Shown piece by piece: positions 7,450 to 49,557 of a stretch of 64,000 nt of DNA. The notes below the pieces were generated by a model that worked only from the letters and a program-made list of their open reading frames with translations, was not told where the DNA came from and made no database searches. Source of the DNA: Arthonia radiata. Lineage: Eukaryota; Ascomycota; Arthoniomycetes; Arthoniales; Arthoniaceae. Every line of letters starts with the position of its first letter. Position 1 is the stretch's first letter. The stretch lies in contig PSQN01000012.1 of the NCBI GenBank assembly GCA_002989075.1, forward strand, positions 1,178,001 to 1,242,000, read 5' to 3'. The translations under genes and the position numbers were made by a program.

Positions 7450-8350
7450 CTCATCCTCTGGCACCACCAATCTGCTTGCCCTCGTGGCAAAGCAAGCGTC
7501 ATTTTGCGGGTGCAATGCCACCCGCGGCACAACAACCGCGATAAAAGCATCGAGACGGGTGAAAATTGCGATGCCGTCCCGGAGTCAATGCGCAAGTACC
7601 TGGCGATGCAGGCCATGGAGTCTGGCAAGCCTCTCATCAGAGACATTGGCTCTCGCAGTCTCGCCCAGTACGGCAACGGTCTGATCATAAACACTGACTC
7701 TCGGGCCAAAGATTGTAAGTTCTATCAGATACAGGCTGCTGCTTCTTGATGTGAGCTGACACGAACTTTAGTCTCTTCAAGCATCATCTGGAGCCGAGTG
7801 AACTTCAGTGGTGCGATTGGGCAGCAGGAGACACCGTCACCGACCATTTATCCTGGCACGCGGGGAATCTCCCTTCGATCTCATCCCTTGGCACCACCAG
7901 TTTGCCTGCCCTTGTGGTAGAGCAAGCAACTTTTCTTTGCGGGTGCCGTGCCACCCGCGGCAGCCTCAGTGGAGCGACTGGACAGCAGGAGACAGTATTG
8001 ACGACCATTGGCCCCGGCATGTGGGAAATCAGGCGGAGCGTCGTGTCTGGCAAAGGAGGAGGCCTCCCCATCCGCGTCGCCCCTGGCTGCTGTTGAACCC
8101 CACACCCAGGCCAAGATCGCCCACGCCGCCAACGTCTTCGGCTTGTACCGCCCCCGCCTGGAGCAGTGCCTCAACCCGCCGGCCATCGCTTCCAAGACCG
8201 CCGGTCCGCCGTACTCACTGGCCCCCTCAACACGGACATCTCTTACCTGGCCAACGCCTGCGTCAACTTGGCTGTGAAGTATGAAGGGTACAACGATAAC
8301 TCCGGCATCGTCGCTGACCCGATGGCGAGCCTGCTCCAGCTGGTGTAAGT
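7450..8350 (+). pseudogene. decayed coding-like region with internal duplications
   Basis: Two blocks are duplicated in direct orientation. One of about 80 bp occurs at 7450-7530 and again at 7876-7956 (both with GGCACCACCA and GCCACCCGCGGCA). A second of about 65 bp occurs at 7808-7872 and 7967-8031 (both with CAGCAGGAGACA). Coding-like pieces include MRKYLAMQAMESGKPLIRD near 7589 and NTDISYLANACVNLAVKYE near 8232. A plausible GT-AG intron starts at about 7714 (GTAAGT) and ends TTTAG near 7771, but the reading stops soon after. I do not recognise a family. Given the macro-domain array directly downstream, this may be the ruined 5' part of that locus. Confidence 0.4.
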
Positions 8351-8399
8351 GCTCCATGGAATGTAGCTGGACTCGCAGATTCTACCCTCGGCTTGGAGA

Positions 8400-8740
8400 A
8401 GACACCGAAGAAGCTGAAGAAGCGTGTTGTCAACATCGTTCACAGCGGCAACAAGCGTTTCCGCAAGGAACCCTTTCAGCCCGCGGTAACGGCACGATCT
8501 GGATGAGCCGGAGAGAGGCTCACATCGACCCCAAGACTGGCCACCCAAAGCAGGTCTATCGCTACGACAAGGACCTCCCTACAACCTCCTTCAATAAGAA
8601 TGGAAATTTGATCACGAACAATGGCATCCTCAAAGCCATTCATAACGGCGACAAGCGTCGTCGCAAGGACCCCTCACCCCTCTCAGCCCGCGGTAACGGC
8701 ACTTGGAACTTTCATAGCGAGCACCTGGCTCAGGATCAAG
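8400..8740 (+). repeat. duplicated segment upstream of the minisatellite
   Basis: A block of about 65 bp at 8440-8507 is repeated at 8644-8710. Both copies share ACAAGCG, CGCAAGGA and CAGCCCGCGGTAACGGCAC. The copies read as KR-rich peptides (GNKRFRKE and GDKRRRKD). The encoded function is unknown. Confidence 0.5.
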
Positions 8741-8742
8741 GT

Positions 8743-8922
8743 CCTCAGAAGCAGCTTCCTCAAGAGCAGCTTCCTCAGAAGCAGGTTCCTCAGAAGCAGG
8801 TTCCTCAGAAGCAGGCTCCTCAGAAGCAAGGTCCTCAGAAGCAAGGTCCTCAGAAGCAAGGTCCTCAGAAGCAAGGTCCTCAGAAGCAAGGTCCTCAGAA
8901 GCAAGGTCCTCAGAAGCGTGCA
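8743..8922 (+). repeat. 15-bp coding minisatellite, 12 units
   Basis: Twelve units of 15 bp run head to tail. The consensus is CCTCAGAAGCAAGGT, coding the pentapeptide PQKQG. Units 6-11 are identical to it; units 1-5 and 12 carry changes. The identical core points to recent expansion. It sits in an open frame (8281-9363) that continues into the first macro-domain piece. Confidence 0.85.
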
Positions 8923-8973
8923 AGCCAGAGTATCGAACTTCGGGCTCTTAACAATGAAGTTGCCCTGGTACGT

Positions 8974-10684
8974 AACAGCTCCGCCGCCGTCCTAGATATG
9001 GCCCAATTCAGCTCTCCCTGGGAAGCTTCAGACCAGAACTTCAAGACCATCGCATTTCTCGCCATATCATCCGGCGTCTACGGTTTCCCGCATAACGAGG
9101 TTGCTTACGTGGCCCTCGCGACCACTCGCCATTTCATCCAGCATGTTCAACAAAGTCATTCTCGTCCGCTTCACCGGCTCGCAACATTATCCATGCCATC
9201 GGACCAATCTATAATCACAAGGATTCAGACAGCTCCGCCGTCGTTCTCAACATGGCGTACTACAACACCCTCCGCATCGCAGCAAATCAGCAATTCAAGG
9301 CTGTCGCGTTTCCCGCGATCTCGACTGGGATCTACCGATACCCCCACTACGAGGCTGCCCTAGTCGCCCTCAGAACTGTTCGCCATTCCGTCCAGCATGT
9401 TCAACAAAGTCATTTTCGGGGTCTTCAAAATCTCAACGAAGACCCCTGCAAGGATTCCGGAGGATACGCTGCATACGTTCAGAACTACTACCAGAGCATG
9501 GCCGGCCAGCAAGGCCAGCGATCAGCCGATCAGCAGCAACAACAGTACGGCTATCCATATCGGCAAGGCTACAATGCAGGCAGTCCTACGCCAGGAGCAA
9601 GGTCGCTGGGTTACGCGATACGTATCAATCATCTCTCCTCATCGCCGAAGCGAACAACTTCAAGACCATCGCGTTCTGCGCCATCTCGACCGGCGTCCAC
9701 GGCTACCCTCACCACGAGGCCGCCTTCGTCGCTCTCAGAACTGTTCGCCATTTCGTCCAGCATGTTCAACAAAGTCATGTTCATCGACCATTCGGTCGAC
9801 TTGTTGAGCGACACATATCAATCGTGTCTCCTCATCGTCGACGCCTACCATTTCAAGAACATCGCCTTCTGCGCCATTTCGACTGGGAGTTACGGCTTTC
9901 CCCACGTCGAGGCAGTCTGGGTCGCCCTCAGCTCAGTTCCCTACTTCCTCAAGAAGGGCTACGGCCGCAACCTCGAGAAAATCATCTTCCTTGTCTCCAC
10001 CCTGGCGGACCTGCGCGCCTACGAGGAACTCCTTCCAAATGTCATTCCTCCCTCAGCGCTGCCAACCTGACCGGCGTCTACGGCTACCCGCACAACGAGG
10101 CAGCTTATGTCGCCCTTATGGGTATCGCCACTTCCTCCAGCATGTTCAACAAAGACATTGCCGGGGTCTTCACCCCAGGCCTACTCGATGCGCCCCGCGT
10201 ACTCGCCGTTCCGCGCAGGTTCCCTACCTCTACCGCGCTCCTACAGTCGCCCACCAACGCGACCTGGAGTGTCGAGCCGACGTTCTGCGCTGGCATTAAG
10301 CGCGTGACCCGAGCCGTGTGCCGCCTGCCACGCGTCACGTCCCGCCTAGGTATGAACCTTTACGCATGCATTACGTGTGGATAGTTGTACTGACATGCAA
10401 TAGCCTCCAGCATGTCCAACAAAGTCATCGTCGGGGTTTTCACCCTGGCAGACCTGCGCGCCTACGAGGAGCTCCTCCCGAAGGTCTTCCCACCGAGAAC
10501 GCCACCGACCTTCCGCGCCGATCGGATGCTCTCGTTCACTGAGAGGTGCGACTTCGTCCCACCTCCATATGCTCGCGTCGCCGTCGTGGCTACTCGCGAC
10601 TTCCTCCTGGAGGACAAATGTTTCATGTTCGACAGAATCATCTTTGTGGTGTTCACTCAGGCGGACCACGTGCGGTGGAGTTAG
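8974..10684 (+). pseudogene. tandem array of macro-domain (ADP-ribose-binding) pieces, decayed
   Basis: Six pieces of a macro domain follow one another. Macro domains bind or hydrolyse ADP-ribose. The loop-2 signature recurs as ISSGVYGFP (piece 1, from 8974), ISTGIYRYP (piece 2, 9183-9440), ISTGVHGYP (piece 3, from 9641), ISTGSYGFP (piece 4, 9834-10070) and TGVYGYP (piece 5, from about 10060). Piece 6 (10404-10684) keeps only the last strands. Piece 2 also keeps HAIGPIY, the strand before loop 2. Pieces 4 and 6 share LADLRAYEELLP, the usual C-terminal helix. A sentence of 20 bp beginning CCAGCATG and including TTCAACAAAGTCAT recurs with its CAG at 9139, 9393, 9758, 10138 and 10408. The pieces lie in all three frames, and no catalytic loop 1 (NAAN..GGGGV) is seen. 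A short intron (about 10350-10403) may precede piece 6. I read this as a duplicated and decaying locus; a multi-exon gene is the alternative. Confidence 0.6.
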
Positions 10685-33261: not shown

Positions 33262-33414
33262 AGGGCGGCGGCCCTGTTCAGACGTCTGTGTGCTGTGTTT
33301 GGGGTGTGTCCCCGTGCTCTCTAGGAGCAAGACTCTACAAGAGTCTTTGTAATAGTAGAACAACCTGTGTAAAAGACACATTCCACCTGCATTTCTCTTG
33401 TTGTTGCATCTTTG
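33262..33414. other. UTP20 3' flank
   Basis: Short ordinary-composition segment between the UTP20 stop and the abrupt shift to AT-rich sequence at about 33415. It contains a repeated GACTCTACAAGAGTCTT hairpin-like sequence near 33331, a weak candidate for a transcript-end structure. Confidence 0.4.
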
Positions 33415-33857
33415 TACTTAAATAGTAAATTTTATAAAGTTACTTTAGTATTATATTTACTATAAGTTATATTTAATTTACTATTTAAGTAATTTTAGTT
33501 TATATTAATAGTAATATAGAAGTTTTATACTATATTATAATTAATATTTATATATTAAGAAAAATTTTTAAAAGCTTATTTATATCTTTAAGTAAATTTT
33601 TTATAAAATGTTATTTAATTAGCTTTATTTTAATTTATAAAAATAAATGTATATAGTAAAATATAGTTTAATTTAAATTTAATATTTTATTACTTAATAA
33701 TTTAGTTTCTTTATTTTATAAAGAGCTTAAAAGGTTTTTAAGCTTTTATATTAAACTTTATATAAATATAAAGAACTTTTTTATATTAATTACAATAACT
33801 ATAGCTAAGTTAATAATATATTTTATTATTTATTTTTTAGAATATATATATATATAA

Positions 33858-34328
33858 TGTTACGGGCACCAGCCCCAGACGGCCTAGCGCACATCCAAGC
33901 ATCAACCACCGCCAGTCGTCTCAGCCCTACCAGCATCATTCCCGACTAAGCCTACAAACCCGCTGTAGGCATTATCGGACAAGACGGCTATAAAGGCCTA
34001 CATTCCCTATAAACCCGACATAGGCATTGTCGGGTTAACGGATACAGAGGAACTTCCCTATGTACCTTAGACTATATAGCCAGACTAATGACCGACCTTA
34101 GGATAGACTTTAGTCTATTAACTCAATATCTGAATACAAGTTCCTTAACTATATTTAGGTAACGTGCTTCACCTTCTGTCTACTTTAGTCAAGCCCCTCT
34201 CACCCTCAGTAATCTATCTCGCCTCTACTACCTTTTAGTCTCTAGCACACGAGATACCTACTACTAAGGTCGACAAGCACACAAGGCAAGTGAGCCTTAG
34301 TTCGGTCCTCCCAGCAACCGGCGTTACA
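33858..34328. mobile_element. solo LTR, 471 bp, with 5-bp target duplication
   Basis: A GC-balanced island in the AT block begins TGTTACGGG and ends CGTTACA, with TG..CA termini, and is flanked by TATAA on both sides (33853-33857 and 34329-34333). Inside, a phrase like ACCCG(A/C)..TAGGCATT.TCGG occurs twice about 55 bp apart. No internal region is present, so it is a solo LTR left by recombination. The family (Ty3/Gypsy or Copia) cannot be set from the LTR. Its near-normal composition suggests it came after, or escaped, the heavy mutation around it. Confidence 0.75.
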
Positions 34329-34693
34329 TATAAAGTAATATCTTGTTTTTTATTCTTTTTAGTATAAGTTTACTATTTATTTACTAAGTTTTTAAAGAAT
34401 TCTTAAATATACTAAATAATAATATAAATATTATTAAAATTTAATATATTAGCTATTTAAAATCTTTTTTTAATAATTTAAGTTTATTAAATATTTATAA
34501 AGTTAATAGCTTTTTTAAGCTTAAATATCTTTTTTTAAAAAGCTTATTAATTTAGCTTTAAAAGTTTAAATTACTTTATAACTACTTATTATTAGTTTTT
34601 AAACTATAAAAAAACTAAAGCTTAACTTTAAATATTTATTTTTTAAATTAAAGCTTTTTAATAGTATACTATTATTACTATACTAATAGTTCT

Positions 34694-35201
34694 TGTTAAA
34701 AAGGTACAGGGAAGAAGAAGAATACTACTATAAAGAGTAGGAAGACGAGACTAGCTTAAGACTGATACAATACTTAGACTTAGTACAGGTACAATACCTA
34801 GTAGCAAGGAGAAGCTGTTGTTATATTGTCTGTCTTGTTAGCTAAAATTCTCTAGAGAGATTCTAGCTTATATATCTAAGTCTAGCGGCCTGTACAGGAC
34901 TTACTAGATATCTATTCTTTTTAATAGAGGCCAGATAACCTATAACTTATTGCACAAGACAGTAATTCCGTCTATTTAAAACTGTTAGTCTTTAAGTTTA
35001 TTCTATGTTGTCTTAGACTATAAGCCAGCTGTCTAGAATAGGTCGTATAATGCTCCTTTTTGTCTTAGGTCCGGGCTACTAGGCCCGACTCTTTAGATAA
35101 AAGGCTTGTTCTATTTTAGACTAAGACAGCTAATAGGACCTATCCAATACTCTAGGCCCCTAAGGGTTCCGGCTAACCAGCTAGTTAGTTAATTTTTAAT
35201 A
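34694..35201 (-). repeat. Copia 3' LTR
   Basis: 508 bp, matched along its whole length by the LTR at 39591-40099. In window orientation it shares the GGTACAGG start region and the GGCTAACCAGCTAGTT end region with the other LTR. Confidence 0.9.
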
Positions 35202-38200
35202 TACCTCCTTAATCGACTAGTTGTTTTAGCCGGATTGTAAGCTAATTTAAGTTTTAAACGTTAGTATTTTAGCTAAGTCGATTAGTTTTGTTAAACCGTC
35301 TGCTAATTGTTCCTTTATAGAAACGTATTTGAGCTCTATTTGACCTGCCTAAACGTTTTCTCTAACATAGTGATACTGTATATCAATATGCTTAGATTTA
35401 GCTTAGAAGGTAGGGTTTTTTGTAAGTTCTTTTGCCGAATTGCTGTCGGTAAGTAACAGTTTTACCAGCAAAACCGGGGTCTCCGGTCTAATTTAACCGG
35501 CTTGCTCGGGCAAATATATGCTTGCCTGGTGCGTTAGAGCCCGCCGAGTCTTTTTATCCGCAGACTTTTTAAAAGTACCCGCTAAAACGGTAGTAATCGA
35601 ATTTTCTTCGAAAATCCCGGACAGTTCGATAGCAATTAATTAGATAAATAACTGTTCTTTTATAGCTTCTTTAAGAGCTATATATTTAGTCTTATAAGAG
35701 CTTAAGACGACCGTTTTTTATAGCTTTAAATTCTAGCTAAGGGCTCTGTTCCTAAGTAGAAAGATATAGTCGGTAGTCGATCTCCTAGTACCGAGGTCCT
35801 CCCCCCAATCTGCGTTACAATAGCCGGTTATACCGTCTATTAAGGGAGATTTGTAGTAAAGGCTAAGGTTAGGAGTCTTATCTAAGTAAGCCTAAAGGCT
35901 ACTTAAAACTCTCCAGTACTTCTTACTAGGATTCGACATATACCGGGCTAGTAGGCTAGTTATAAAGGCAATATTGGGTCTTGTCTTTGTTATTAAATAC
36001 AAAATCGACCCAATTTGTTGCTGATAATTAGAAATATTGGCACTGCTAGCTTAGTTAGAATTTGGTATCAATTTTGAGCTAACGGATTGCGGTATTTTCC
36101 CGGGCATTCGGCTGTTTTTCTTCGAGTATTTGGTTAAAATTTTAGCTAAATAAGTCGACTAGTCTAGGCAAATTGTTTTTGCCGGGCGATCTCGGGTAAT
36201 TTTAATTTCTAGGAACTTACTAACGTCTTCTAAGTTCTTAACCGTAAGAGTCTTATTTAGTTTCTAGTAGATTTTAGAGATTGTTTTAGTAGAATTGGAT
36301 ACAGCTAATATATCGTCTATATAGACGATTAAAATTGCCTGCTTTCTGGTTCTTCGAATATAAACCGACTAATTAGATACTAGGGGTTCGAAATCTATTC
36401 CTCTTAGTAATTCTCGAAGATAGGCTTTCTACTGTCGGCCAGCCTGTTTTAGACCGTAAAGGGCCTTCTTTATTCGATAAACTTTATTAGTTCCGTTAGA
36501 TAGGCTAGTTAGTTACTCGATATAGACAATCTCGTCTAACTTTGCGTTAGAATAAGCTAATTTTACGTTCTATTGCTTTATTTCCTAGTCTTTCTCTGCT
36601 GCTAAAGCTAGTATAAGCCGGTAGGTAATTAAATTTACTATATTCGTAAAGGTCTCTGTAAAATTAAGGCCGAGTCTTTGCTGGCAGCCCTTAGCTACCC
36701 AGCGGGCTTTAAAAATCGGCTCGCCTTTCGGAGGGTACTTAATCTTCGGCACTCAGCGCCCTTTTAGCGCCTTTTTGTCCGGCAGCAGCTTAGTTAATAT
36801 CTAAGTTTCTTAGTTAGCTAGCTCTTTGAGCTCCGACTATATTGCGTCTAGCTAAAAAGGCCAATTCTTAAATACTCTTATTTCTTTTAAGTTATTAGGC
36901 TCTTTAGTAACTACGATTAAGGCCTGCTCGGCGTATTGTTTTAGGTTATTGTAGAACTCGTTAAACTAATTTTTGTCGGCGTTTTCGTATATAAAATCTA
37001 TTTTCTGGGCGCAATCGGTGTCTACCCGGCCGGGGTCTTCGGTACTTCTGTAATCTAACTCGGTAGGAAGGTTAGACTCGTCTAGAGCTCTAGTTTAGTA
37101 TAGTTCTTGTTTAGATTCGTCCGCTAGTTGTTAAGATATAGGAGGGGTATACTGTTCCTTATATAGAGAACTTCCTTCTTCATTGAGAGGTACCTCTCTA
37201 TTATCTTAAGATTTAGCGGTCGGATTTAGCTTCTTTTTAAACTTAACTTCTAGTTGTTCTTTAAGCTCTTTAGAAATACTCTTAGTTAATCGATTAACTG
37301 TAGATCCCCGTAGATTCTAAACAAATTTTCCTTCTTAGACGTAGACGTCTCTCTCTCAGTAAACTTTTCGGCTATTAAGGTCTAAGAGCTTATATTAGTT
37401 CGATCTATAGTCTATTAGGATATAGGTAGTTACTCTAGCGTCTAGTTTTTTTAGTTTAAGTTCTTTAAGATAAGTAACTGAGCCCTAAATTTTAATAGTA
37501 CTGACATCCAGTTTTTTACTGTATTTTACTTTGTACAGGATAATAAACCCCGGTAATTTAGTATAAGGGGTCCTATTGTAAATATAGGTAGCTGCTTTTA
37601 ACGCTTTACCCTAATATATCTGAGGTAGCCCGGCGGTATAAAGCATTGCTCGAACTTTACTAACAATTGTTCGGTTAAAGCGTTCGGCTCGTTTATTTTG
37701 CTAAGAGGTATACGATACAGATATCGTTAGAATAGCTTCTTTTTATTCTAGAAGCTGTTTTATCCGGCCTTCTCGGTATTCTTTTGCGTTGTTTAAGTAC
37801 AGTCTTTTAAAAAGATGCTCGGACTGCGTTTCTTTCCGAGTAATATAAGTAGATAGTACGTCAAAAACCTAATCTTTAGACTATAGTACCTCGATAGTTG
37901 TATACCGGGTTTTATTGTCTATAAAGCTAGTAAATAATCGACCTTTAAAAGGGGTTTGCGGTACAATTGGCCCGCAAATATCTAAGTAGACTTTTTCCAA
38001 ATAATTGGCCGATTTGTCTAAAGTTTTTCGGCTAACTTTAGCCGTTGCCTTTACTTTAAAGCAAATTTAGCAATTATCTCCCGATTTATCCGAATAATCT
38101 ATTTCTAGGGCAACCTTTTTAAGCTTTTTTAAGGCGTTTTCGCCTATATATCCTATTCGTTAATACTAAAGGTCAGTTTTCGAAGAAATAGTATAAAGAG

Positions 38201-39590
38201 ATCGAACTGTATTAATAGTCTAAGCTTCTATTACTATTAGGCCGTTAATATACTGCCTCTCGATGGTTAGTTGTCCGGTTTAATTAACTTTTGGCTTGTT
38301 TTAGCCAAGAGTTACCTTACCTCCCCTCTTTCTAAGCTTATCGAAGCTTAGAAGGTTAATTCTAAATTCCTTAACAAACAAAACTTTGTCTAAAACAATT
38401 ATTTTATTCTTAAAGAACAGTTTTGCTTTACCTGTTTAGAAGGCTTAGATTAACTTCCCCCCTCTTTAACGAATAATCTGGTTAGTTGGCCGGATATCCG
38501 TTAGAAGGTCAATATTTGAGTAAATATAGCTTATTAAGCCTATATCGAGAATTTAAGAATTAATAAAGTAATTGACTCTGTTTAGTAATACTGTAAAGCA
38601 TTGTTCTTCTTGTAGGTTGGAACTGTAAACAGAAAATATTAAAAAATCGGTGTTTTTAGAGCTTTTGTTAGAATTTAGCTGGAGATTTAGGTATTTTTTC
38701 CAACAAGTTGCCGGTTTATGCCCCTTTTTGTTACAAAAGAGGCATTTTTCTTAGTTTTTACTTAAAGGTTTTAATTTTTCTCTGGTCCTTTGCGTCGATT
38801 TATTGTTTATTGCAGTAAAAACCTTTTCTGCTAGGGTACTACCGCGGATTCGGCGAGACTCGTCTATAAGTTAACTAAATAAGTCCTGTAGACTTATATC
38901 GCTAGTCGTTTGCCGATAGCTTTGGCTAATAATAGCTACCGTGTGCTCGTATTCGGGGGTCAGATTGTAAAGAACGTAGGTAGCTACCACCTTGTTAGGT
39001 AGTGCTAGTCCTCGGGTTGCTAAATTGTCCGTTAATTGCCTAATTTTAGCAAGGTAAAGCTTAAGGTTTTTTACCTCATTAAGTATAGTGCTAAAGAGCT
39101 CCTTGCAAATTAGAAACTTAAAACTAAAACCTTTTGATTCGTATAACCTTTTTAGGCTATCTCAAAGCTCTAAAGAGTTATAAATCCCCTTTATTTAAAT
39201 AAGAAGACCGTTCTCTAGAGTTAGTCGAATAAGGACTACTACCCTTGTCGACCGTTTCTAGCGGCTAGCTTTAATAATATCTTTAGCTAAATAGCCGGAA
39301 AAGGGGATTATAACATTACTGTAGCCCTTTTTAGTTAAAAGGGCCTTTATTCGAATCGATTAAATGTCTCAATTAGTTGAGCCCTTAAGTTTAGGAATCT
39401 TATAGGAGGAGTCTATAGCCGAATATATAGTCGAAGATTTCCAGAAAAAAAGGAAATTCTGTTCTAATAGTTAAATTAGGCTAAAAATTTAGAGTCGATT
39501 AGTAATAGAATCGTTTAGAGGTGCCGATAGGTGGAATATTTTCTAAAAAGGAAATTTGAAAGAAATTAGTGCTAATCCGGGCTTATAACC

Positions 39591-40099
39591 TATTAAAAAA
39601 GGTACAGGAAAGAAGAAGAATACTACTATAAAGAGTAGAAAGATGAGACTAGCTTAAGACTAGTACAATACTTAGGCTTAGTACAGGTACAATACTTAGT
39701 AGCAAGGAGAAGCTATTATTATATTGTCTGTCTTATTAGCTAGAATCCTCTAAAGAAATTCTAACTTATATATCTAAGGTTAGCGGCCTGTACAGAACTT
39801 ACTAGATATCTATTCTTTTTAATAGAGGCTAGATAACCCGTAACTTATCGCATAAGACAGTAATTTCGTCTATCTAAAACTATTAGTCTCTAAGTCTATT
39901 TCGTGTTGTCTTAGACTACGGGCCAGCTGTTTAGAACGGGTTGTATAATGCTTCTTTTTGTCCTAAGTCCGGGCTACTAGGCCCGACCCTTTAGGTAAAA
40001 GGCTTGTTCTATTCTAGGCCGAGATAGCTGGTAGGACCTGTCCGATACTTCGGGCCCCTAAGGGTTCCGGCTAACCAGCTAGTTGGTTAATTTCCAATA
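39591..40099 (-). repeat. Copia 5' LTR
   Basis: 509 bp; the partner of the LTR at 34694-35201. It is slightly less AT-rich than the other copy, so the two were mutated unequally. Confidence 0.9.
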
Positions 40100-40583
40100 G
40101 TTCTTATTTTAGCTATATATTTTAATACTTAAAAAGATATTAAAAAGAGATTTTTATAATCAAGGTTTTAATAGGTTTCTTTATTATTATTATTATTATT
40201 TTAGTTGAAATTATTATTTTTTTTAGTTTATAATTTATTTAGTATTTATTTACTAACTTATAAGTTTTTTTACTTATTATTATTACTAAATTTTATACAA
40301 AAGTTTTTATTTTTTTAAATATTAGCTATATTTTACTACTCTCTATACTTTTATTATTCTATAAATATAAAATAACCGTTATTATATACTTAAGTCTTTA
40401 TATATTCTCTTTAAGCTTAGTACTTATTAATATTAATTATTAATTAATTTTAATATTATTTATTTATTTATATACATATATAAAGCTTTAGCTATACTTA
40501 GTTATATTAAGTTAATCTTTAAGCAATATTAATAAGATATTTAACTACTAGCCGTCCTTTTTATAGATTTAAAATAATTAAAA

Positions 40584-41175
40584 TATAATCTAAATATAAA
40601 GTAAAAAGTAATTAAATAGTAAAAAGAGCTCTAATAAGCTCTATTAGTATTTAAGCTAATTATTAAGAAGAAAAGAAAGAAATATATTTACTAGATAGAA
40701 GATATTCTTTTAGAATTATAGCTTTTCTAAATAGATAATATTCTATCTTAATTTACTATTAGAATATCTATATATTATAAGATTTAAAATAAAGCTTAGT
40801 ACTGAACAATATACAGGATAATAGTAAGTAATATTACTCTTTTTCTAATTAAATGTAAATATAAGCTAGTAGGTTTTTAATAAGGTTATTATCTTATATA
40901 ATATAGAGGATAGAAGATACAATAGATATAATAAATTGTATCTAAATTAAGAGCAATCCTTCTTAAAAAGAAAGGTAGTTATAATATATAGACATTCTAA
41001 TAGTAAATTAGAATAGAATATTGTTTATTTAGAAAGACTATAATTCTAGAAGAATATCTTTTATTTAGTAGACGTATTCCTTTCTTTTTTCCTTAATAAT
41101 TAGTTTAAATACTAGTAGAGCCTATTAGGGCCCTTTTTGCTATCTAATTGCTTCCTGCCCTATATCTAGATTATA
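40584..41175. mobile_element. TIR fold-back element (MITE-like), ~590 bp
   Basis: Two inverted arms of about 190-200 bp (40584-40785 and about 40985-41175) flank a ~200-bp centre. The arms pair along their length; the tips are TATAATCTA and TAGATTATA. If the outer TA is the target duplication, the element fits a Tc1/mariner-type MITE. The right arm keeps more G and C than the left, so the arms were mutated unequally. No transposase is visible. The right tip coincides with the left end of the ~150-bp array. Confidence 0.7.
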
Positions 41176-44100
41176 CGTAGCTCTTGAACGCTTTTTTATA
41201 AGACCTAAACAACCTTTAGGAGATACTATACTAAGAAGTTTTATCTCGGGTGAGTTTATAGCCGTTCGTACTGTTACTTCTGCTTTTTCAGGAGCCCTTT
41301 GTATGTCGAATCGGAGGGATTATATAGATACGCTCATTTTCAAAGCGGATTATGCTCGCTTGTGTGCTCTCTCGGAATATTTTGTGCTGACACATCGCGC
41401 TCTAGGTAAATCTACAGCCGTTGTTGAATAATAGGCGTTGTCCAATACGCTCGTTACGAACGCCAAACAAACTCGTTTGTGTGCTCTCATGGGATTTGAG
41501 TTTGTGCTAACATGTAGTACTCTAGAGTCAGTCTACAGCCTCCACAATTTTCCTACTATGGTCTACTGAGAGCCGCCGGTTGATGAATAGGAGGCGTTGT
41601 TTGATTCCCTCGTTGCGAAGACTAAACACACTCGCTTGTGTGCTCTCTCAGGATTCTGGTTTGTGCTGACACGTACTATCCTGGGGGAGGTCTACAGCCT
41701 CTACAATTGTCCTTCTGTGGTCTACTGAGAGCCATCGGTTGTTGAGTAGGAGGCGTTGTCCAATACGCTCGTTGTTAAGGCCAAATACACTCGCTTGTGT
41801 GCTCTCTCAGGATTCCGGTTTGTGCTGACACATTGTACTCTAGGTAGGTCTTAGAGCATCTACAGATTCGTCTACAAGCTTCGTTATAGTCCTTTCAGCG
41901 GACCATTTGCTGGCAATACTCTGGAATAATCTGCTTAGATGCGGCTTCGCCTGACCTACATGCTGTGCACAGAAGTTGATACTGATATTCCCTAGGTAAG
42001 TCTCAGAGCAGCCAGACGTTCGTCTCCCGGCTTTGTTGCCGTCCTTTCAGCGGCCCATTTGCCTGCAACGCTCTGGAATAACCTGCTCAGATGCGGTTAT
42101 ACCTGACTCACATGCTGTGCACATATGCCATTACTGACATTTCCCCGGTAAGTCTCAGAGCAGCCACACGTTTCGTCTTGTGCCTCGAAACTTATTACCA
42201 GGCAGCTAGTGCACTAGCGCTACCCCCATAGCTTTTGTTTGAAACGTGAAAGACCCTGGAAAGATACTGTGCTGATACCTCCCCCCTTAGGGGTAAGTCC
42301 TGTTGTCCCACTTTCTATTCTGAAGCCGCTTTGTGGTCCAGAAGACAATGTGCTGAAATTTTGATACCACAGCAAGTTGAGATTTACCCCTTCTGCCCGC
42401 GCTCGTTGATCTATGCCACAAGAACCGTGTCAAGATTGAAGCATACTCACCTCTCGCTCGCGGTAACAAGCTGGAAGATGAGCGTATTGTCGCCATCGCG
42501 AAGAAGCACAACAAAGAGCTTGCTCAGATCTTTCTCAACTGGAATGTCGTGTATTAGTCTCAGAGCAGCCACACATTTCGTTTCTGTGCCCCAAAATTCA
42601 TTGTCAAGCAGCTAACGCGTTGGCGCGGTCCCATAGCCCTCTGTTTGAAACTTGACCAAGCTCCAGAAGAGGCTCTTGACAGCCGCTCCTGCGGTAAATC
42701 GAGCTTCCACACATTCGATCTTATGGTCTAGAAACTTTCATCGGGTTGCAAACGCACTTGCGTTGCTCTCAGACAGATTATTCAGAACCCAAACAACCTT
42801 TGGAAGAAACTGTATAGGGATCTTGGTAGCCTCCCATCCAGCTAAGCTCTACAGCGCTCACACATTGCTTTCCATAGCCCTTGAAGCGACCCTAAGTATG
42901 CTGAATACCGGCGGCGACTTGCCGAGTTCATTTTAAGAGTAGGAGTTGCTAGTGTGGTTGCTGTGCTAGGCGCTACAAGTAAAGATCCTCTGTATATTGT
43001 TAGCAGCAGCCGCAAGTCACCTTTCTCGTTTGCAGTCTAGCACCTCGTAGCTGGTGCGCTGGCGTCGCCTTAGACTCTTCTATCTCAGATTTATGCGATG
43101 TAGCGTAAATGCTCTCTCCAGAACCAATTATACTGACGCTTCATATTTGTGTATATTTCAGAGTACCCATGCATGTTGTTCTGTGACTCAGGAACCAATG
43201 CCTGGCAGCCAGGGCACTGGCTTCATTCAAGAGCGCTTTTTTGAGATCTGAACGATCATTTGAGGAGGCTGTGCTGGAATTGAACCTGCGAAGTCTGAGC
43301 GCCTCTAGATATTCTCTTCTATTACATTACAGCCAAGTTGAGATTGGTAGCGCACTTGCGCTACTCTGAGACGTTTTGTTTCAAGCCTGGACGACGTTTA
43401 GAAAAGGCTGTGCTAAGATACCCCGTCTAGGTACGTCTCAGAGCGTCCACACATCCTTCTATTGTCGCAAAATTCTTTGTCAGGTAGCTAGCGCGCGGGC
43501 GTCGCCCAAAAGCGCCTCCTTTAAACCAACCTTAGAAGCGGCTGTACTGATATTCTTTTCTCAGGTAAGTCTTACAGCCTCTGGACATTTTCTTTCGTTG
43601 CGTTACGGTCCTTGCTAAAACGCTGGTACACTTGCGCGGCGCTTGGACGTTTTCTTCCAAACTCGAACATCTCTCGGAAAAGTTTGTGCTGGTTCCGTCT
43701 AATGAAGTCTGAGAGCCTTCAGCATTGATCTTCTACTACCTTACAGCCAATCTCAGGTCGCTACCGCGCATGCGCTGCCATCAGACGAGTTTTTTTGCAA
43801 ACCGAGCGGCCTCGGGAAGAAATTGTGCCAATACTTTCCTCGTAGGAAAACATGCCAGAGCATCTACCTACGCAGTCTCACAGTCTTTTGTGATTGGATA
43901 AGTGACACTTTCACTGGCGCTGCTCTCGGACGTTTTGTTTTCAAACCTGAACGAACATCAGAAGGGACTGTAGTAACACTTCCTGCCACACGAAACTCCC
44001 AGAGCATTTGTATGCGCAAGTTTACAGTCTTTTGCAATCCGATAAGGGGCACATTCGCCGGCGCTGCTTTCAGACGGTGTGTTTGAGTCCCGAACGACCT

Positions 44101-45350
44101 TTGGAAGAAACTGTACTAACATTCCCGTTAGGAAAAACGTCTTGAAGCATTTGTACATGCAGGCTCATAGCCTTATGTAATCTGGCGAGAGCTCCGTTCG
44201 CAGATGATCAGCCTTGAGCTTCGTTCATGGAACAGTATTTGCGGGTGTGACTACCGTTCAGGATATGTACCGACATTACGGCTACGAAAGAGCTGCAGTG
44301 AGTAGTGGTGAGTCTCAGAGCATCCGTACACGCTATTTGATAGCCATGTCTTCTATTGTGCAAGGATCTTTCGCCGGCATTCGTCTGCAAGCTTCATTTC
44401 TGAACCAATCGTTACCATTGTGATTGCTGCTCAAAATGCATGATACTCACATTATTATCATAAAAGAGCGGAAAACCTGTACAGTGGGAAGCTTTGTGTC
44501 TCATAGTATCCACATACGCCGCTCTGTAGCCCTTTATATTTCGGTGAAAGACCCTTTTGTCGGCGCTTTATCCTCAGTCTCGTTTCTGGACGGATCGGTC
44601 TTGGTACGACTGCTACTCGAAATTCCTTGCGCTCACTCACAATGCGCTCATGGCAGAGCCAGAAATTGGCGTATTAGGAAATTATAAGCTCAACAGCGTT
44701 TGCACACTTGCATCTCAAGCCTGCAAGACGGCCCTAAGCGTCCGATCTGCCGGGGATGACTCGTGAACATGAACGAAGGACCCTTAGTCGACACCGTGAC
44801 CGCTGCATCGAGATTTGATGGTTATGATTGAAGATCTGACGCAGAAATGCCACAGCAGCTGCTGGTCGCACTCTTCCCCAAAACATCCAGCTTGAGGGCC
44901 TTAATACGTGGGCTGTTGCTTGTGGTTCGCTGGCTAAGGACTGAGAATAATGGTGGGGGCTTGTATTGGAGTTAACTACGCTGAAATCGCATCTCTAAGC
45001 ATGTGTTCAAGTTTGCACGCGCCATACACTTTCAGAAATCTCTTCAAAGCCTTTACGCCGGCATTTCTGTTGAATATTAGCTTGGCTGCAGTTGTGACTG
45101 GTGTGGATGCTGTACAGGAATATGAGTTTTGAAGCATGCACATATCTCGTTTCAATGCCTTGGCTCCACCGCCATGCCACCAACGTGCCGATGATGTCTT
45201 TAGAAACTCTGTTGGAGACCTGGATGATCATCAGAATGGGTCGTGCTGACGTCTTTCCCCCAATGAAGTACAACTGTGAGCATAATGCGTTCTGAGAGAG
45301 CATGAATGTGAGTCCTTTCAGCCCATGATAATGACGTGTTTGCACAATGC
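41176..45350 (+). repeat. head-to-tail array of ~150-bp diverged units with intron-like junctions
   Basis: About 25 units follow each other. Junctions are clear at 41250, 41406, 41526, about 41687, 41844, 41996, 42148 and 42293, then about 42556, 42691, 42841, 43431, 43565, about 43709, 43848, 43982, 44130 and 44308; the measured steps are mostly 135-160 bp. Three interior subfamilies occur: A (41250-41844, ~157 bp), B (41844-42148, 152 bp, two copies) and C (from 42148). All share one junction: GTGCTGACA or TACTGATATT, a short pyrimidine run, CTAG or CTCAG, then GTAAGT and CTCAGAGCA or CTACAGCC. Most units also carry a short palindrome followed by GCTCTC or a similar phrase. Similarity fades to the right. 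No long frame spans units, and unit lengths are not multiples of three, so the array is not one coding sequence. Confidence 0.85.
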
Positions 45351-47178
45351 CTCCATTCCAGCGACTAGAAGTGCCTCAATAAACATGAAGACAACAAGGT
45401 TGCACGCTATACACCTGATGAATATTCAAGAGTGTTATGATACTGTACAGTCACACCTGCATCAACACTCAAGGCTTTACGATGTTCACAACATGAGCAT
45501 AGTATTTCCAAACTCTTATGCATCATACAAATACTACACGATCACCGCATCGGAGACCCTGCTTCTCTTCACACGCCTTCATTCATTGCGGATACAATGT
45601 ACTGTGTTGCTCCGCAGGCTTTCGGCATCGATCACTGGCACATATATTCGAGTAATAAAAGCTCGCCATCTGCGAATACTGCAGCGACACCGCCATGCTC
45701 TCCATCTACCCAGCAAGATCAGTCCAGATGTCCATTACTGAGCTACAGCATCCTTTACCACCCGCGGGACTAGATCTTCATACGAGTTGCACGCTTTGTC
45801 AACCTTGATCCTTCAGCACCAACATAGCTAAATTTCACGTTCGAAACCTCATTTTTGCGTGCTCGACGTTTTATTTTCTTTCTGAGTACAGTGTACTATA
45901 AAAATGTCCATTGAGAGCTCTCTGGTGAACTTGAACTGCGATAAAACTGCCTTTCACTGATATTGCCGGACGCGCAAGCTTTTTATCGCCTATGAAGCTG
46001 AATGTGGGATGCGACTACTCCGTCGTTCGTGTTCAGCGTTGCGTCAATTTGACTGTCCTTCACTAAAAGACGAACAGCTAATAGAGAGAGATCAGTAGTT
46101 CAGTCAACATTCCGAGCATACGTTCATTACTGAGATCATTTGCGACGACGACCTTCTAGGAGTATCAAGATCTGGTTCAGGTACAAACGCCGGTGTATAT
46201 ATCTCCGTTGCCGAGAACATATCTTGGGGCAGGCTTCTGCTCAAGTCATGAAGCCGACAACAGAACACAGCATGAACCATCCTTGCTATGTTTCCTGGAT
46301 CTTACACTCAGGCTGGTGTGTATTTATTGAAAAACCGTGAGAGCATCAGCAGGGCAGAGGTTGCAGTTCAAGCCAGCATTGTTTTTACGCTAAGACGATG
46401 GTGTTGCGCCAGCTTTTCGGTCCTCTTGCGGTTGATATGAGGACACAACAACAAGTATTACTTGTATGTGTAACGTGCGGCGACATCCTGGGTCGGGTTA
46501 CCGGCGGTTCGACCGGGCCATCAGCGAAAGAGAGCGTCTGCGTCAAAAATCAGGCAAGCAGAGTCGCGGTGTCTTCGGTATGGTCTATGGAGCTAGTTCT
46601 TCATTGTTTTTGCGGGCGGTTCGAAGATGTGGGCGCTCTTGGTCTTGTGTTAGAAGTTCAAGACGGCATAGATGAGCTGACTGCAGGGCAGGTGGTCTGA
46701 GTATCCGCGTAAAAGATCCTCTACATGTTCTCGGCGGTTTAGGTCTTTGGCTGATGGGAGAGAGCAGAAGGTAGGAGCGTTGTAATTCAAGCTTGACCAC
46801 GACAGCCACTCGGTGCCCCTGCAGATTTTTCTGGCTTGTAAAAAACGATGCGTGCAATTTAAAGGTTGATCTGGGAGATGTGGCGGCTGATGCGCAAAGG
46901 CTGGCATAGTATCCGCTTTAAAAGGTACTGCGATCGTCGTTGACCTCACGTTCGCTGGCTAAATCAAATAGAATGAGAAAAGACAAAAATACAAGCACGA
47001 AGAGTCCTCTCTGCGGCTCATTTGAACTGTGGCACCTGATGATCAACACGGTCACCTACCGCAGTGAAGGATAGTCCTAGCTTGTCAAGCCAAAAAGGAA
47101 CAAACAACGAAAGGTACCGAGCTTCTACGATACACCATGCAGAACTTATGAAATTGGACACGCCAACTAACGTGAAGC

Positions 47179-47259
47179 GGCCGTGCTCGCCGCTCTGGAA
47201 ACAACATGATTCCCATCATATCTGGGAATTATGCGGTTTCAAGAGCGATGAGCACGGCC
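47179..47259 (+). other. 81-nt imperfect hairpin, miRNA-precursor-sized
   Basis: The outer arms, starting GGCCGTGCTCGCCGCTCT and ending AGAGCGATGAGCACGGCC, pair over about 24 bp with three mismatches. Inside, ATTCCCA pairs with TGGGAAT around a TCATATC loop. The shape resembles a small-RNA precursor, but a palindromic relic of a transposon is equally possible. Confidence 0.5.
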
Positions 47260-48604
47260 GGTTCACGAAAGACAATTTCAACTTTACAAAATATATTGAA
47301 CGCAACTCTTGGTTCCAGACACCGTTCAAATCTTCTCTACCCCGCATTTGACCTTCCATCTCACAGACCTTGAGTTTACAGGTCTGCGAATGCTTGCATT
47401 TCTACGAATCATTGTTTCAACCAACTTTCAGATGACTGATAGTCGTAATGGCCGAAATAAAATCATTTCACCTGGACAAGCCGCGCCAGTCTTTCAATAA
47501 CAGTCTTACCTCCGCAGTAAATCTGTTGGGATTATGTGCTATTATCATTCCTGTCTAGTGATGATAGATACTTGATCGTGTACGCTACCGACCGTGCATG
47601 TCTGCTGAAAACATTTCTGACTTCATGCTTTCTTTCGCGACTGGGCCTTCTTCAAGAACGCCCAAGCCTCCAGGCCCCTAGCGGAGATCGTCCAATAAAA
47701 TTCCACGCATAGTTGTATCTCTACCATCCTGCTCTAAGCTTTGAACCCATGTCCAACTCATGTACGACCACGTGCAAGTGTTGGCATTTGTTGTTCATTC
47801 ACAGGAAAGTGGCAAACGCATGCGCTGTAATTCAGCAGTCTCCCAGAGTCTGGGCTCTTGTAACAGTTTCGTGGCCGTGCAGGTGTCGCAAAGTATGAGG
47901 CGAATCGATATGGACAAGTCGTGTTCAACGCATCGCGTGCAAGGGACGGTTGACAATTGCGAGATCTTCTGCGCCTATCGAAAGACCCCGGCTTTGCCAT
48001 GCTATTGTAACAATGTGTGGGAGGAGGTAGTATTGGCGCGGCCAAGGAACATCCCTGACGCAACGATGAAGGGTCCAAAGAGTGCGCTTGATGCGTGTCG
48101 CTCGGCAGACGCGATCCAGGTCTCAAATAGTCGTACGCCTCAAGAATCTTCGTATTATGCTACTATAGACTCTGCGGACACGTTCCCGGCATGATGATCG
48201 CAGCTTCGACGCTGGCTTGAGGAGGCGTGCAAGAATCGCGAAGATGCCTGGAAGCGCTGGTAAAAGACATCGGCAGTCGACATAGAAACGTGCAGTCAAC
48301 AAGGTGGGTGCTTAGTGGGGTTTGCACCAAGAGAGAGACTCTGCCAACCACTGCAGGTAAAGAGAATGTGATAGCGGGCCCACGTTGGAGTCCCGTGTGT
48401 CTTCGGACCAGCATCACAGTGCCGAGAGTGGATCGCTTTGTGTCATCAGTGGGAATCCAGGAAAGCTCCGTGATCCTTGGCGCGAAGGAAGAGAGAGCAA
48501 GGCCGGTAGCGTGCGGCTCTAGTTTATGGCCGGATGACGTCGCATTGATGCTTCCACCCACATAAGTGATAAGGGAGGTCTAGTGACCTTCTGTCACCCT
48601 TTCC

Positions 48605-49140
48605 GAATGGCTTGTCGAATTCAGTGCATCTCCGGCAGACGTCCGCAGCGTTGCACTCGTACTGGAGGGAGTCAACAAAAGATGGGGAGAGGGTCTCAGA
48701 TGATGGCAGTGGACAAAGCAAGGAGTCATGCGTGGAGTTGTTGGCTCTACTGACGGCTGTCGAGGTGATCGTGGTCGGCGCGTCCCTTGCATGCAACTGC
48801 AGCATTATACCTGGTTTTGAGAAGGTCAAACTTGACGCGAATAAGGCCTCCGATGATGGCGACGGAAGAACAGCGTATCGAGCCTGGTGTGACGAGCTTT
48901 ACCAGCGGCTGTTGAGGTAGTTTTGGTCATCGTGTCTCCTGGAGACATTAACAGTGGTGAACCTGTGTTGGACAGAGCTCAAATGGATACGTATAGGACC
49001 TCAGGTCACGGCGCTGGGGGGAACGATGCATCAAGCGCCGTGTTATGGGATTTGCTAGCGGCTGTCGAACTGATCGCGGCCGTTGCGTCTCCATACGATT
49101 GCAGCGTTTAATCCAGTCTTGAAAGGGCCAAATCGAAGTG
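48605..49140 (+). repeat. second tandem family, ~151-bp period, about four diverged copies
   Basis: The anchor GGCTGTCGAGGTGATCG or a variant occurs at about 48605, 48755, 48906 and 49059, steps of 150-153 bp. Each is followed by a (T/G)GCGTCTC-like phrase, a GCAGCGTT-like phrase and a GAGAAGGTCAAAC-like phrase. The unit does not clearly match the 41-45 kb array, although the period is nearly the same. Confidence 0.6.
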
Positions 49141-49488: not shown

Positions 49489-49557
49489 TAGCTGAGTTGG
49501 TGGTGCCATCGAAATTGCAATGCTGTTGCAATTTCGATGGCACCACCAACTCAGCTA
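49489..49557 (+). other. perfect 32-bp inverted repeat with 5-nt loop
   Basis: The arm 49489-49520, starting TAGCTGAGTTGGTGGTGC, is the exact reverse complement of 49526-49557; the loop is TGCTG. No mismatch in 32 pairs means it formed recently or is maintained. Candidates: a small-RNA hairpin precursor, a template-switch product, or a recombination scar. Confidence 0.9.

Follow-up and report, generated by a model that had tools for sequence, protein, structure and literature searches.

A stretch of 64,000 nucleotides from the ascomycete Arthonia radiata (assembly GCA_002989075.1, contig PSQN01000012.1, positions 1,178,001 to 1,242,000; hereafter the window, with positions counted from its first letter) holds a run of some 25 head-to-tail units of ~150 bp beside an AT-rich block that bears the marks of repeat-induced point mutation (RIP), and thereby raises the question of what kind of sequence was multiplied at this place, and how. 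The observations set out below establish it as a locally grown, decaying noncoding tandem array. What the unit once was can be stated less firmly: judged from the sequence, we tentatively regard the array as the relic of tandemly amplified introner-like (intron-type) units in or beside a dead gene, a reading to which we give a little less than even confidence.

Results

Extent and growth of the array

The units lie on the plus strand throughout, from 41176 to about 45267, and comprise 24 recognisable copies and a stretch of three weak ones. The first-pass annotation of this locus, which had proposed ~25 head-to-tail units of ~150 bp and expected a self-alignment peak near that length, is confirmed on both points by Tandem Repeats Finder (period 159 with 78% match at 41420–41864; period 152 with 79% match at 41840–42178), by the lags of shared 8-mers (a peak at 150–159 in 41150–42200, with 91 pairs vs. 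0.1 expected, and at 140–149 in 43200–44200, with 12 vs. 0.2 expected), and by an iterated profile hidden Markov model (HMM), which gave 22 plus-strand matches at E ≤ 0.05 spanning 41176–45250. No lag bin is outstanding in 42200–43200 or 44200–45350, and the array is therefore detectable in part by profile only; because the profile HMM was trained on the array's own units, its scores are optimistic. A second profile alignment, from whose training set units 44308 and 44498 were excluded, scored these two at 36.0 (z 7.6) and 37.9 (z 6.7), with 12 shuffles each, and scored unit 45122, a member of the training set, at 90.1 (z 37.7); since reverse-strand scores, which are not properly calibrated, reach 32.0, the values of 36–38 represent a modest excess.

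The limits first given for the array, 41176 to 45350, hold at the start, which is taken as correct because the preceding bases belong to an inverted-repeat element (40584–41175), and shift at the end to about 45267. Extension to the right was ruled out, the second profile giving one window of z 2.7 and all others ≤1.2 in 45351–48720, as was extension to the left into the AT block, where a RIP-aware alignment of the windows from 39901 to 41170 found no units. The spacing of the joints has a median of 150.5 and a range of 120–260 over 26 intervals, the joints having been set by hand from profile matches and those at 44836 and 44992 being little better than guesses; the interval of 260 bp is the one that contains the gene fragment described below.

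Neighbouring units are the most alike, with identities of 0.82 (41526/41685), 0.76 (41844/41996), and 0.68 (43848/43992). Mean pairwise identity is 0.46 over 18 of the 20 aligned rows, and over the same rows units further apart in rank are less similar (Mantel r −0.37, with none of 5000 permutations reaching so low a value). These tests exclude the ragged row a44141 and row a41109, the latter because 41109–41248 is mostly inverted-repeat element or the truncated unit that follows it; row a41109, partly element, did enter other sets, among them those for segment folding and consensus folding. The highest similarity being between neighbours, the array grew by local duplication and not by separate insertions, which is evidence of growth and not of introns. 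The same pattern suits an ordinary local satellite, in which a noncoding unit was amplified by unequal exchange and is now decaying, the splice-like joints and the position of the gene fragment being chance. We hold this to be the main rival, somewhat below an even chance; it accounts for noncoding units on one strand that most resemble their neighbours and carry no folding signal.

The AT block (33400–41175) has strong RIP indices, with a TpA/ApT ratio of 1.62; along the array the ratio runs 1.29, 1.24, 1.01, and 0.65, and two gene-rich parts of the window give 0.55 and 0.56, a gradient that looks like a fading RIP footprint. RIP needs a length and identity above those of ~150-bp units that differ by at least 18%. 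The differences between neighbouring units show no excess in RIP context (5 of 18 transitions in 41526/41685 and 6 of 24 in 41844/41996), so the gradient may predate these pairs or reflect the unit's own words. The earlier description of a noncoding, satellite-like array beside a RIP-type AT block is borne out, and the accompanying claim that RIP spared the array agrees with the neighbour comparisons but not with the gradient. The inverted-repeat element whose right end cuts the array is itself RIP-damaged, with arms of 197 nt that are 85% complementary; we infer that its insertion at 41176 came later and was followed by the spread of RIP into the left part of the array.

Splice-like phase of the units

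In the best-kept units one phase stands out, in which GTAAGT comes first, a CTRAY branch-site motif lies near the end, YAG comes last, and the next GTAAGT follows immediately, so that consecutive units are separated by an exon of zero length and meet as AG/GT. The unit consensus begins GTAAGTCTYAGAGCATCCACAC and runs to GAAGAGNCTGTGCTGACATTTCC, its final bases being ragged. At joints 41406, 41844, 41996, 43431, and 43565 the preceding unit ends in CTAG or CTCAG and is directly followed by GTAAGT or a close variant, giving YAG/GT; many other joints differ. The pattern CTRAY-N4-22-YAG-N0-3-GTRNRT has seven plus-strand matches in the window and none on the minus strand; five of the seven fall at array joints (41387, 41825, 41982, 42272, and 43547), with 0.1 expected in the array. 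A stricter form (GTRAGT, gap 0–3, either strand) occurs in 261 of 200,000 random 145-mers of array composition, and in 49 with gap 0.

The same signals occur in two introns of the TPT transporter gene of the window: one, found by scan, reads GTAAGTCAT...GGCTGAC...CTCCAG (GTAAGTCAT...CGGCTGACTTGACTCCAG), and the other, read by eye, GTAAGTCC...CGCTAAC...CTCTAG (GTAAGTCC...CGCTAACACCCTCTAG). They are the only ones relied on among the window introns, which were sought by joining reading frames, a search that gave a rough list of ten candidates on both strands, some of them overlapping. Five window introns or candidates were compared with the unit profile, and one rough candidate, 10350–10403, resembles the branch region (3 of 150 shuffles as high).

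When families A, B, and C are compared with one another, the 10-column window of highest conservation is that of the branch site (0.69), followed by columns 10–21 (0.65), the mean being 0.41. This conservation can also be read as a box of ~50 bp across the joint, such as the site of a DNA-binding protein (CENP-B-type-like), with variable spacers and an intron likeness that is secondary: the joint is flanked by the pair of windows that score highest between families, TGTGCTGACA and the stretch around AGAGCATCCA, and the windows between them score 0.22–0.45. We consider such a box quite unlikely, however, as the gene fragment splits its core at AG/GT, the best joints share words with local introns, and the array has an uneven pitch and no 10-bp signal. 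The power ratio of AA/TT/TA periodicity at 10 bp is 0.97 in the array (0.83, 1.04, and 1.24 in three other stretches), and this, with the uneven pitch, leaves the nucleosome phasing suggested at first unsupported.

A gene fragment in exon position

The 176 bp at 42373–42548 do not resemble the unit (99 of 100 shuffles score as high) and code for a portion of an aldo-keto reductase: phmmer against PDB gives 1e-8 with the longer open piece and 3.5e-10 with the piece from QVE to NWNV, two frames joined by X. The fragment lies on the same strand as the units, contains one frameshift near 42402, and has both ends on codon boundaries. Its left edge comes directly after the CAG at 42372 that closes a short unit (42293–42372), whose 3′ part matches columns 87–143 of the 143 profile columns (1 of 300 shuffles as high) and whose 5′ half (42293–42345) shares GTAAGT and otherwise shows no unit similarity (151 of 300 shuffles as high). 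At the right edge, alignments of the uncut frame stop no more than two residues from 42548, and 4 nt separate this end from the profile start of the unit that follows. Post hoc arithmetic puts the chance of both edges at ~(3/145) × (9/145), or roughly 1 in 800. Neither the intron-like phase nor this fragment figured in the first reading of the locus.

As to an exon origin of the array, the aldo-keto reductase fragment is the one protein match inside it, and no other PDB match reaches E 0.05 in the six X-coded frames of 41.2–50.0 kb. Pfam Aldo_ket_red reached only E 0.0098 on the fragment, below the family cut-off, and Pfam found nothing in the long X-coded frames, where the aldo-keto reductase piece was missed too; a Helicase_PWI match at Pfam E 0.14 in shorter frames was discarded as meaningless. 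That the array descends from a repeat gene that coded for protein, or from a tandem element of Helitron type with CTAG ends, is very improbable: several units do end in CTAG, but most unit lengths are not divisible by three, there is no consensus hairpin, and the fragment remains the only protein match at E up to 0.05. A coding repeat was rejected on the two indel-free neighbour pairs, which have no third-position excess (differences by codon position 9/9/11 and 10/11/16), a result that a satellite would equally produce.

Weighing the intron-type reading

Several observations count against intron-type units. The joint motif amounts to about one observation because the units share descent, and it was found after looking. 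By loose criteria, 14 of the 25 joints have a donor, 12 have YAG, 11 have a branch site, and 6 have the full set, which leaves the signals incomplete at 19 of 25, as a satellite would have it; the consensus of the ragged 3′ end columns is likewise CCCAAG and not YAG, YAG being visible in single units. Conservation of the donor (5′ splice) window is 0.44, about average, in part owing to slippage of the alignment at that place; AGAGC at +10 to +14, which to our knowledge is no recognised splice signal, is among the most conserved bases. The other four window introns or candidates show no unit likeness beyond the signals (48, 58, 68, and 138 of 150 shuffles as high), and the best match of the iterated profile HMM outside the array has E 0.77 in the 64-kb window. 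For the gene fragment, the left edge depends on where the query was cut, one residue before QVE. Finally, 27 hand-cut segments (including 41109–41248, partly element, and the weak segments) fold with a mean z of +0.15 on the plus strand, where the lowest value is −1.38, and +0.05 on the minus strand, and a hand-completed unit consensus folds with z +1.12, six other segments giving −0.67 to +0.41.

The folding results bear also on an array that produces RNA (structured or small-RNA genes), which the first-pass annotation had offered as one possibility and to which we assign a very small probability. Repeated units on one strand would suit it, as would a central palindrome in some units, a suspected hairpin with 72.7% of cells paired vs. 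25.8–40.9% in slid versions; yet 153 of 500 shuffles pair as highly, the segments fold like controls (20 windows at 45–50 kb, +0.15/−0.14; 20 at 1–33 kb, −0.12/+0.02), RNAalifold finds 0 pairs in a consensus of the units, and an Rfam search gave no match in the array. Structured RNA is ruled against by the folding z, RNAalifold, and the pair counts. Two further searches, for the pattern AGTCTCAGAGCAKCCACAC in viral and genome contig collections (0 matches) and by blastn of 41400–42400 in plasmids (no match), concern collections other than fungal genomes and are of little weight.

Against the satellite, chance would have to account twice over, for the complete splice joints of several units (261 of 200,000 random repeats carry one) and for a gene fragment of the same strand at unit edges. 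In our judgement an intron-type unit is about as likely as chance resemblance, or slightly likelier, because two separate features, the joint motif and the fragment in exon position, agree.

Features of the array and of the surrounding window

The rows of the array are collected in Table 1.

Table 1. Units and other features of the tandem array, in window positions.
Feature	Position	Strand	Evidence
Whole tandem array, ~25 units	41176–45267	+	Tandem Repeats Finder, 8-mer lags, profiles
First unit, truncated, abuts inverted-repeat element	41176–41248	+	Profile match 41176–41235, E 1.5e-05; RIP-aware alignment 41170–41244, z 14.8
Family A units 41249, 41406, 41526, 41685	41249–41843	+	Within-family pairwise identity 0.57–0.82
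Family B pair 41844, 41996, 152 bp each	41844–42147	+	Tandem Repeats Finder; identity 0.76
Family C unit, GTAAGT start, TTAGGG end	42148–42292	+	Profile
Short 80-nt unit, GTAAGT start, CAG end	42293–42372	+	3′ part = unit 3′ end
Aldo-keto reductase fragment, one frameshift, exon position between two units	42373–42548	+	PDB phmmer
Four extra bases ahead of family C unit 42553	42549–42552	+	
Family C units 42553, 42693, 42847, 42994, 43151, 43289 (first six of the twelve in this stretch)	42549–44307	+	Profile
Family C units 43431, 43565, 43703, 43848, 43992, 44141 (last six of the twelve in this stretch)	42549–44307	+	Profile
Example joint: CTGAT branch site, CTCAG, then GTAAGT without intervening base	43547–43570	+	
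Two divergent, longer (186-bp) units	44308–44679	+	Both profiles
Weak unit similarity	44680–45121	+	Three hand-cut pieces: 2/100, 4/100, 19/100 shuffles as high
Profile match within weak stretch	45038–45117	+	E 9.4e-06, trained profile
Last clear unit	45122–45267	+	50 bits; z 37.7, training-set member

Within the AT block, 34698–39895 is bounded by two direct repeats of 300 nt, 4898 bp apart and 91% alike; it is probably a RIP-damaged long terminal repeat (LTR) retrotransposon with the direct repeats as its LTRs. To the right of the array, 47171–47267 has inverted arms of 45 nt, 84% complementary around a 7-nt loop, and is scored by the Rfam family MIR2599 at 31.8 bits (E 0.0044), well short of the cut-off of 120; it is probably a small inverted-repeat element. 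Three degenerate copies at 48681–49138, spaced 153 and 152 bp apart and unrelated to the array, resemble by eye a broken protein repeat of 51 residues and show no codon-position bias and no Pfam match. A perfect inverted repeat at 49489–49557 (two arms of 32 nt, 100% complementary, 5-nt loop), ~400 bp before a probable gene start placed by eye, is a candidate for a fresh miniature inverted-repeat transposable element or a hairpin RNA precursor.

Proteins encoded in the window include Gar1/Naf1, Mtf2, a Nab2-type zinc finger, TPT, cullin, a DNL zinc finger, and a macro domain, a set in keeping with an ascomycete. The gene region at 7800–10400 has by eye several macro-domain-like repeats in different frames, one of which is the Pfam Macro match, and a 15-bp tandem repeat lies in the same region at 8729–8917.

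Discussion

If the units are of intron type, each would consist of a U2 5′ splice site (GTAAGT), a CTRAY branch site ~15–20 nt before the end, and a terminal YAG, and consecutive units would meet as AG/GT around a zero-length exon. When transcribed, any run of units could then be removed singly, stepwise, or as one intron; splicing of this kind would leave no trace in the mRNA, so that growth of the array, by local duplication, would be nearly neutral. The units would then once have been spliced. Because the 176-bp fragment is in exon position, an aldo-keto reductase gene that is now dead probably hosted the array or recombined with it.

A broader proposal, which we consider unlikely, is that of a tandem intron nursery, in which introner-type units multiply head to tail at one locus, with zero-length exons that keep the growing array out of sight in the mRNA, recombine with the introns of genes (an exon being captured between two units), and seed families of introns. 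Such a nursery, if true, would provide a DNA-level source copy for fungal introners.

The array can be set beside several known systems. With satellite and minisatellite DNA it shares noncoding, head-to-tail units of which neighbours are the most similar, but it is a single short locus in the window, its unit has intron signals, and a gene fragment is lodged in it like an exon. Introns that arise by tandem duplication under the AGGT model likewise consist of direct tandem copies with joints usable as splice sites, one intron spanning several copies (PMC4974935 and PMC3629103), and AG/GT joints between direct copies are found here at five places. The fission-yeast cases described in PMC4974935 belong to living genes and span 2 and 4 copies of a 24-nt segment, whereas the array lies in a dead region and has ~25 copies of a 150-bp unit that includes a branch site. 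The stwintrons and sister stwintrons of Hypoxylaceae also form repeated families and complex intervening sequences that are spliced consecutively; stwintrons, however, are nested, an internal intron interrupting a splice element of the external one, and sister stwintrons have terminal inverted repeats (PMC8469720, PMC9024468). The units of the array adjoin and follow one another, with no nesting.

The introner-like elements of fungi resemble the array in being short repeats that bear U2 intron signals and fall into several diverging families (Collemare 2015, PMC4457414). Those elements are described as sitting in unrelated genes as introns, with predicted structures that are stable (PMC8469720), while the array is one locus of head-to-tail units with no fold signal and with no copy seen in the genes of the window. 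Of the sites expected of an introner-like element (5′, branch, and 3′), the best-kept units have the full set, which is seen at 6 of the 25 joints, and the consensus of the ragged 3′ columns is not YAG; stable secondary structure is absent from the units. The array is accordingly not to be filed as an introner-like element, because the folding feature is lacking and presence in multiple genes was looked at in the window only; it may nevertheless work, or have worked, like one. Fungal introners have no target-site duplications and a strong gene bias, and reverse splicing has been proposed for them (PMC9860276, PMC8469720). The literature surveyed, which comprised titles and abstract openings, with subscription papers mostly outside it, names no tandem array of introner-like units. 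If the units were only ever intergenic, the array would be an ordinary relic satellite; a tandem array of intron-type units holding the exon of a gene, if true, would be a concrete DNA-level intermediate in the multiplication of introners.

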